Positions 2,269 to 3,912 of a stretch of DNA of 5,392 nucleotides are shown in pieces. Every line of letters begins with the position of its first letter. Position 1 is the stretch's first letter. The DNA is from an uncultured Eubacteriales bacterium (GTDB lineage: Bacteria; Bacillota_A; Clostridia; Christensenellales; Aristaeellaceae), in the NCBI GenBank assembly GCA_902795555.1, contig CADBLV010000268.1, positions 1 through 5,392 on the forward strand. Direction: 5' to 3'. A program made the position numbers and the translations under genes. The notes beneath the pieces were generated by a model, which saw only the letters and a list, made by a program, of their open reading frames with translations, made no database searches and had not been told where the DNA came from.

Positions 2269-3912
2269 ATGAAAAAGCTGCTTTTCAGCCTGACGGCCCT
2301 GGTGATGCTGCTTTATGCCTGCATGACTGCGGCCTTTGCGGAATCCTCTGTCACCTCACCGGATCAGCTGAATCAGCCGGGGAGAAAAGTCGGCGTCAGC
2401 ACAGGCAGCGCGGCCATGCTGATTGCGGAGAAGGAACTGCCCAACGCGGAGATCGTCTATTTTGAGGACTCTGCCACGGCCTATGAGGCGGTGGCTCAGG
2501 GAAAGATTGACGCATATGTATATGACCGCAGGCAGATGGAACTGGCGATCGCCAGCGGACGGAAGGATGTGCATCTGCTGGAGGAAAACATGCAGGAAAC
2601 CGTCCGCATCGCCGTGGGGATCTCCCCTGTGTGCACGATTCCGGACTTTCAGCGGGAGCTGAACGAGTTCATCGACGCACTGAAAGAGGACGGGACGCTG
2701 GACGACATGTATGAACGGTGGGTGATCCGCTATGACGAGACCATGCCGGACATTCCTGCGCCGGAGAATCCACGATATCATCTCACGATCGGTACCTCCG
2801 GGATCGTGCCGCCCTACAGCTATTATGTGGGGAATGCGCTCAACGGCTATGATATCGAACTGGGCCTGCGGTTTGCGGCCCGGATCGGCGCGGAGGTTAC
2901 CTTCCGGGTGTATGATTACGGCGCGATTGTGCCGGCGGCGGTCACGGGAGACGTGGACTGCATCATGGCCAATCTGAATGTGACGCCCGAACGCGCGGAG
3001 GCGCTGCCTTTTTCGGAAGACCTTTATGAGGAGCACGTGGGCATCATGGTGCGCGGGAATGCAACCGGAGCACCGGCCGGAACAACGGGCGACGGGGAAG
3101 GGGCGACAACCGGGGATTCCGACAGCAGAGAAACCTTCCTCCAAAGCGTTCAAAACAGCTTCAACAAGACATTTATCCGGGAAAACCGATGGCAGCTGTT
3201 TATAAGCGGCATCATCACGACCCTCAGCATCACGCTGCTTTCCATCCTGTTCGGAACGCTGCTGGGGTTTGGTGTTTACCTGCTGTGCCGCGGCGGCAAC
3301 CCGGCGGCGAAAGCGATCACCCGATGCTGTCTTTTCCTTGTGCAGGGCACGCCGATGGTGGTGCTGCTGATGATCCTTTATTATCTCGTTTTTACAGGCG
3401 TGAATATCAGCGGAATCGCTGTGGCGGTGTTCGGGTTTACGCTCACCTTCGGCGCTTCGGTGCTTGAAATGCTGAAGATGGGCGTCGGGGCGGTGGACGG
3501 CGGCCAGTATGAAGCGGCGTGGGCGCTGGGATATTCCAGGCGGCGCACCTTTTTCCACATTATTCTGCCGCAGGCCCTGCCCCATATGCTGCCGGCCTAC
3601 AGAAGCGGGATGATCAGTCTGATCAAGGCCACGGCCGTCGTCGGCTATATCGCTGTAATGGACCTGACCAAGATGGGAGATATCGTGCGCAGCAGAACCT
3701 ATGAAGCCTTCTTCCCGCTGATCGCGGTGACGGTGATCTATTTTGTGCTGGAAGGACTGATCGGGTTTGCGGTGAGCCGGATCGGGACCAGGTTGGATCC
3801 GAAAAAGCGGGATCGCAGGTGGGTGCTGAAGGGGGTGAGGACGGATGATCCGCATTGCGCATCTCCGGAAGGAATATCCGAAAATCATCCCGCTGCGGGA
3901 TGTGAACGCTGA
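2269..3912 (+). CDS. Fused polar amino acid ABC transporter: binding domain with swapped lobes plus permease
   Basis: This 547-residue protein joins receptor and channel of a HisJM/GlnHP-class importer. A signal peptide (1-24, ending AFA|E) is followed by residues 31-152. These match the second half of SBP family 3 proteins, from the hinge (DQLNQPGRKVGVSTGS) through the ligand Asp region (DAYVYD, D86) to the C-terminal helix (DGTLDDMYERWV). Residues 169-262 match the first half (TIGTSGIVPPYSYY, GYDIEL, and NVTPER with the carboxylate-binding Arg, R242). The order is therefore lobe 2 then lobe 1, a circular permutation. A Gly/Thr/Asp linker (263-286) and an amphipathic helix lead to five TM segments (about 308-503). 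The EAA loop that docks the ATPase is YEAAWALGY to IILPQ (414-435). The permease fold ends near 517; the last 20 or so residues overlap the next gene. A lipobox-like LYAC at 15-18 is present but atypical. Substrate is probably a polar amino acid, not further defined. Confidence 0.9.
   Translation: MKKLLFSLTALVMLLYACMTAAFAESSVTSPDQLNQPGRKVGVSTGSAAMLIAEKELPNAEIVYFEDSATAYEAVAQGKIDAYVYDRRQMELAIASGRKDVHLLEENMQETVRIAVGISPVCTIPDFQRELNEFIDALKEDGTLDDMYERWVIRYDETMPDIPAPENPRYHLTIGTSGIVPPYSYYVGNALNGYDIELGLRFAARIGAEVTFRVYDYGAIVPAAVTGDVDCIMANLNVTPERAEALPFSEDLYEEHVGIMVRGNATGAPAGTTGDGEGATTGDSDSRETFLQSVQNSFNKTFIRENRWQLFISGIITTLSITLLSILFGTLLGFGVYLLCRGGNPAAKAITRCCLFLVQGTPMVVLLMILYYLVFTGVNISGIAVAVFGFTLTFGASVLEMLKMGVGAVDGGQYEAAWALGYSRRRTFFHIILPQALPHMLPAYRSGMISLIKATAVVGYIAVMDLTKMGDIVRSRTYEAFFPLIAVTVIYFVLEGLIGFAVSRIGTRLDPKKRDRRWVLKGVRTDDPHCASPEGISENHPAAGCER
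3834..3840 (+). promoter_or_regulatory. Ribosome binding site of the transporter ATPase, inside the permease gene
   Basis: GGTGAGG ends 4 bases before the ATG at 3845. It is a moderate match with short spacing, so translational coupling with the permease is likely. An in-frame TGA at 3836 excludes any earlier start. Confidence 0.5.

Follow-up and report, generated by a model that had tools for sequence, protein, structure and literature searches.

Importers of the GlnPQ type carry family 3 binding domains fused by a short linker to a type I amino-acid permease, and in GlnP of Lactococcus two such domains stand in tandem, each with its N-terminal half (N) before its C-terminal half (C). We analyzed a locus of similar design from an uncultured Eubacteriales bacterium (GenBank assembly GCA_902795555.1, contig CADBLV010000268.1, positions 1 to 5,392 of the forward strand; this whole stretch of 5,392 nucleotides is called the window). 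The window contains a two-gene importer, namely a 547-aa protein that joins a binding domain to a permease, followed by an ATP-binding cassette (ABC) ATPase. Complete canonical domains in tandem, as in GlnPQ, are absent from it, as it has one permuted unit. Unlike in Lactococcus GlnP, the units of this family have the order C-N and occur in one to five copies. The linker to the permease has 34 residues in the window and a median of 20 in the family (range 11-48, 175 pairs), while 19 residues are given for GlnPQ in the available part of PMC8025302.

Natural permutation of binding proteins is already known. Circular permutation was reported among the betaine-binding proteins of the OpuAC group (PMC2395249, in its available part). 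TpMglB-2, the 'Type Ic' glucose-binding protein of Treponema pallidum, is a natural circular permutant as well, and according to the accessible text of PMC4990184 permutants of this type are found in treponemes and Gram-positive bacteria, tethered to the membrane or the wall; the authors consider that anchoring might be the reason. The same text holds no mention of a fusion of TpMglB-2 to a permease and describes, unlike for the domain in the window, a type I sugar-binding fold in which the permutation adds a fourth lobe crossover. An amino-acid binding protein was circularly permuted in biosensor work, as the title of a reference within PMC7683729 indicates; in contrast to the window domain, such permutants are laboratory-made. 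In the open-licence literature of PubMed Central (PMC), judged by titles and abstract openings, we recognised no natural permuted family 3 protein, and no paper on three substrate-binding domains was found in open-licence PMC.

The match of the 547-aa protein to PF00497 (SBP_bac_3), with 80.5 bits (curated cut-off 26.4) and E = 1.2e-22 for the whole protein, falls into two separate stretches. Of these, residues 172-279 scored best and aligned to positions 1-98 of the 132 profile positions, so the profile starts in the second half of the binding region. AncCDT-1 (5t0w), an intact canonical domain, corresponds to the window protein with its two parts in swapped order: its chain residues 123-244 aligned to query residues 28-151 (7.9e-9) and its residues 23-114 to query residues 170-260 (i-Evalue 1.6e-8), in stretches that do not overlap. 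Further, half-domain hidden Markov models (HMMs) built from the family placed one C-half, one N-half and one permease domain on the protein, with the borders listed in Table 1, and no further half. The original prediction had taken residues 31-152 for the second half and 169-262 for the first, each present once, and Pfam, AncCDT-1 and the family HMMs all agree with it; its coordinates, 2353-3054 (residues 29-262), fit the borders of the HMMs and of the structure alignment. The chain break, as we take it from family knowledge and the alignment, lies where the hinge strand of the canonical N-half enters the second lobe. Judged by sequence, the protein is a member of PF00497 through homology of its halves and not through their order, since the canonical order N then C is not found in it. 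If annotated by PF00497 matches alone, such permuted proteins can be mistaken for half domains or for partial tandems.

The swapped order in the window importer is confirmed. A distinct protein of 529 aa, 98% identical to it (P0001), has the same C-N order. An assembly artefact as the source of the order is disfavoured by P0001 and by 58 homologous fusions. The latter came from a scan of genome contigs that was seeded with peptides of the window and gave 64 loci. Their record titles name Lachnospiraceae, Butyrivibrio, Acetobacterium, Mogibacterium, Oscillospiraceae, spirochaetes and Lentisphaeria, with isolates among them (Lachnospiraceae bacterium JC7 and AD3010, Butyrivibrio sp. AE2015 and Acetobacterium paludosum DSM 8237). 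The half-domain HMMs found a whole permease domain together with binding halves in 61 scan proteins, three of them cut at contig ends, and no whole permease domain at two loci (L031 and L061). All 58 homologues with every domain whole had the order (C-N)n-permease, with n = 1 in 31, n = 2 in 19, n = 3 in five, n = 4 in two and n = 5 in one. The five-unit chain (L033, 1679-6193, 1505 aa) and the four-unit chains (L019, 2483-6214; L014, 593-4381) have all their permuted domains before one permease domain. Among the matches listed in a comparison of protein relatives, 112 of 120 had the order (C-N)n-T, where T is the permease; an extra partial C preceded the permease in seven, and one was C-C-N-T (P0078). 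The swapped-order domain belongs to a large family and is not a one-off. It had been predicted as an oddity among fusions: the permutation stands, and the isolated case does not, given a large family with one to five copies and natural permutants in print. For GlnPQ, the available text of PMC8025302 describes two capture domains per chain, fewer than the five reached here.

The distances between the halves differ in a way that defines the unit. In all scored proteins, 375 of the 390 C-to-N gaps measured 20, 21 or 22 residues, a count that left out half-domain matches covering less than 80% of the model. In permease-linked chains, 313 of the 327 C-to-N gaps fell within 20-22 residues, whereas the N-to-C gap ranged from 1 to 39 residues (146 pairs, standard deviation (sd) 7.1). 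The contrast was smaller in the genome loci alone (C-to-N sd 2.7, 98 pairs; N-to-C sd 4.2, 40 pairs). As the C-to-N connector is near-constant and the N-to-C linker variable, the domain corresponds to the C-N unit. A canonical tandem should show the opposite pattern. In genome G200 we found such a tandem, a 967-aa protein (L108, 2413-5313) in which a row of three canonical N-C domains precedes a fused permease; its N-to-C gaps are all 8 and its C-to-N gaps 17 and 18, by hit borders. The inter-domain linker of GlnPQ likewise differs between homologues (PMC8025302, available part).

Coupling between residues suggests the same pairing, with modest strength. We learned 40 coupled pairs on 166 single-unit chains, dropping matches with at least 25% gaps, and scored them in 121 two-unit arrays. 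Mean z was 0.34 for C1-N1 and 0.41 for C2-N2, against -0.20 for N1-C2 and -0.30 for C1-N2 (sd of random sets 0.16). Between-half pairs in the top 200 numbered 97 and 90 for C1-N1 and C2-N2, against 47 and 35 for N1-C2 and C1-N2. In a control with halves re-paired at random, between-half pairs in the top 200 fell from 87 to 0 or 1, which is little proof alone as kinship is destroyed too.

Structure prediction of the binding region as a single chain gave a confident single domain with one closed two-lobe fold. The best whole-length, in-order fold match of the model was OpuAC, at 12-14% identity in the alignments; the best 50 rows by E-value of an in-order search reached a template modeling (TM) score of 0.49 at most and showed no superposition on GlnH. 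OpuAC belongs to PF04069; it shares the flytrap fold with the window domain and differs from it in ligand class, Pfam family and sequence. We conclude, with a probability of roughly 0.9, that residues ~26-264 form one circularly permuted family 3 (Venus-flytrap) domain, composed of a C-half, a 20-residue connector and an N-half, in a hinge-tethered importer that originated by tandem loss. A single full permuted domain had been predicted, and the predicted fold, the OpuAC match, the linker lengths, the modest coupling and free-standing proteins of the same order all point to it. In the cell such a domain would be expected to fold as a monomer.

Two complete domains could also be shared between the subunits of a homodimer, if each C-half paired with the N-half of the opposite permease subunit. 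A homodimer such as that of GlnPQ (PMC8025302) would supply each half twice, and swapped elements occur in permuted ribose-binding protein constructs (PMC10601554; both sources available in part). We consider such an exchange very unlikely, since the single-chain prediction is confident and the connector is near-constant in length, as an intramolecular turn needs. Free-standing lipoproteins of the same order, with a similar connector and no permease domain, argue in the same direction, although these could dimerise too.

It is even harder to believe that the arrays are a frame-shifted tandem, in which canonical N1-C2 pairs are real and the outer C1 pairs with the last N. The middle half of the N-to-C linkers, at 8-15 residues, would be long enough to permit N1-C2 pairing physically, and the canonical fusion in G200 shows that (N-C)3-permease genes exist. 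However, single-unit members offer only C-N for pairing, the wide variation of N-to-C against a near-constant C-to-N is the opposite of what a canonical tandem should show, and the modest coupling favours C_i-N_i. Extra or missing halves were also few among the matches listed (the seven partial third C-halves and the one C-C-N-T protein mentioned above).

The circularly permuted domain would have an ordinary ligand cleft, with Asp86 supplied by the C-half and Arg242, of the VTPER motif, by the N-half. We take these columns to be the ligand Asp and the Arg for the ligand carboxylate, with roles carried over from GlnH and HisJ. The window protein keeps both residues. Among permease-linked units, Arg occupied the Arg242 column in 181/196 first and 152/154 later ones, and it did so in 125 of 132 free-standing permuted proteins and 31 of 33 canonical ones. 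The Asp86 column was Asp in 128/196 and 128/154 units, respectively (first units also had 46 Glu and 18 Ala), and in 124/132 free-standing permuted and 28/33 canonical proteins. The ligand is most likely an amino acid. The permease domain is of the polar amino-acid type (PF00528, 65.5 bits, cut-off 26.4; TIGR01726, 45.4 bits, cut-off 42.2). That the halves are a relic of a decayed tandem without binding function, beside a permease fed by another binding protein, is scarcely credible: the Asp86 column is not universal and pieces of further units precede the permease in P0051 and P0096 (the latter by eye), but Arg is kept in 333 of 350 permease-linked units, the unit occurs in up to five copies, and both halves are retained in records titled Lachnospiraceae, Acetobacterium, spirochaetes and Lentisphaeria.

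In the proposed permuted domain the new termini would lie at the inter-lobe hinge, and a flexible linker that starts from the hinge strand, not from the C-terminal helix, would thus attach the domain to its own permease. A shift of the membrane tether to the other lobe is plausible for this reason. The importer would consist of two fused permease subunits and two ATPases from the adjoining gene. As a permease homodimer, the window transporter would bear two tethered capture domains, and relatives with (C-N)2 to (C-N)5 up to ten. Each capture domain would close on an amino acid and then dock on the permease, so that in arrays several units may feed one pore.

The C-N order is also found in free-standing lipoproteins, with a similar connector and without a permease domain. 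Among the matches listed, 120 relatives of one of them (P0191, itself included) comprised 70 C-N, 43 C-N-C, 5 N-C-N, 1 c-N-C and 1 c-N-C-N. Further, we surveyed 299 genomes, the family group of the genome of Lachnospiraceae bacterium AD3010 (G001, locus L005), with the C-N-C protein P0225 as query. At most six candidates were scored per genome and 266 of the 299 genomes had a match, so the counts are lower bounds: the 150 matches listed were 83 canonical, 64 permuted and 3 other. The 43 C-N-C proteins (P0224-P0231 and others) may represent intermediate forms of the permutation, or be metagenome chimeras; as none was among these 150 matches, a chimeric origin is possible and we left them out of the argument. 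Among the matches listed, 20 of the 64 permuted genes had an open frame of at least 480 residues, used as a proxy for fusion, against 1 of the 83 canonical ones, the (N-C)3 gene of G200 (Fisher p = 1.2e-7, with species not independent and kinship ignored). Six of these long permuted genes and the G200 gene were checked by HMM.

The canonical free-standing family 3 proteins of Lachnospiraceae-type genomes are of the same Pfam family and differ in their N-C order; in several loci permease and ATPase genes lie nearby. A third order, Cb-N-Ca, was found in a 267-aa binding-protein gene with a lipoprotein-like start (L107, 1355-2158, genome G035), in which each lobe is continuous, and also in P0193 and P0219. 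The L107 gene, one of the three other matches of the genome survey, is followed by permease and ATPase genes (both by eye plus comparison). With the canonical and C-N orders, each of the three rotations that the two hinge crossings allow therefore occurs. Natural permutation of binding proteins, so far seldom described, is represented here by a common family that can be detected by sequence and has close canonical siblings, so that comparing relatives can test how lobe order affects capture, docking and fusion.

Regarding origin, a canonical tandem N-C-N-C most likely lost its outer halves, and the C-N block may later have been copied as a unit. In a tree of units (518, thinned by identity to 102) most permease-linked units fell in two large groups, with the window in the first-unit group, and canonical, P0191-type permuted and Cb-N-Ca proteins formed a supported group apart from them. 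P0171, a truncated protein labelled canonical, fell within the clade of the window. For a 76-row tree we removed P0171, P0328 and P0190 (truncated or partial) and L108 (a copy of L078), left out permuted rows fitting none of three groups and thinned the remainder. The original prediction had raised the question of whether homologues of the same order form a clade; one clade of all 50 permuted rows was not rejected (p value of the approximately unbiased test, p-AU, 0.135), and the C-N order may have had one or several origins.

Table 1. Features of the permuted importer and its partner ATPase in the window.
Feature	Position	Strand	Basis
Permuted binding domain-permease fusion (547 aa)	2269..3912	+	Open reading frame (ORF), Pfam, solved-structure alignment, half-domain HMMs
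Signal peptide / N-terminal hydrophobic segment, residues 1-24	2269..2340	+	Sequence; boundary by eye
C-terminal half of family 3 binding domain, residues 34-151	2368..2721	+	Structure-sequence alignment, family HMM
Asp86, presumed ligand-binding Asp column of family 3	2524..2526	+	Column counts
20-residue connector, old C-terminus to old N-terminus	2722..2781	+	Connector-length counts
N-terminal half of family 3 binding domain, residues 172-262	2782..3054	+	Pfam, structure-sequence alignment, family HMM
Arg242 of VTPER motif, presumed ligand carboxylate Arg column	2992..2994	+	Column counts
Low-complexity linker (34 residues), hinge strand to membrane domain, residues 263-296	3055..3156	+	Sequence, HMM borders
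Type I amino-acid permease domain, residues 297-515 (PF00528 at 329-512)	3157..3813	+	Pfam, family HMM
Permease-ATPase gene overlap, 68 nt	3845..3912	+	ORFs, comparison with relatives
ABC ATPase (PF00005) with C-terminal extension	3845..4933	+	ORF, Pfam
ATPase C-terminal extension (ATPase residues 239-362), predicted anti-sigma-factor fold (UsfX, SpoIIAB, RsbW)	4559..4930	+	Alignment, fold prediction

The permease frame of the window is still open in the overlap, 68 bases into the ATPase gene, where six compared relatives have an early stop. It ends 18 residues beyond the end of P0001, which may not end at its own stop.

The C-terminal domain of the partner ATPase is conserved and has a predicted anti-sigma-factor fold, like that of UsfX, SpoIIAB and RsbW. 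By sequence, this extension is present in 45 of the 53 scan loci that bear the ATPase and in 0 of 39 among loci L065-L110, some of which are cut. The extension of the window itself matched no Pfam family, and the extension profile found no relative among PDB sequences; at an E-value limit of 0.1, PF13581 matched 16 of the 44 members in the alignment, the best at 3.8e-5. As to the N-box Asn and the glycine boxes for ATP, read by eye, E44, E45 and N117 are invariant in A2, and in the window Arg takes the place of the Asn that follows the Glu pair in some members.

Next to the importer in two relatives (L026, 7318-9132; L005, 7447-9498) we observed a SpoIIE phosphatase and a MATE transporter that has an HATPase_c_2 domain of its own at its end. 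These neighbours may point to partner-switching control of transporters. A bolder and, in our view, unlikely proposal is that, of the rotations N-Ca-Cb, Ca-Cb-N and Cb-N-Ca found in nature, the hinge-cut ones are favoured for fusion and arrays because both ends leave at the hinge; closing would pull the permease linker, and the anti-sigma-like domain of the ATPase would report transport to a partner-switching pathway, which would make a sensing importer. In one relative (P0112) the permuted binding domain, the permease and the ATPase with its extension were found in a single chain of 903 aa.
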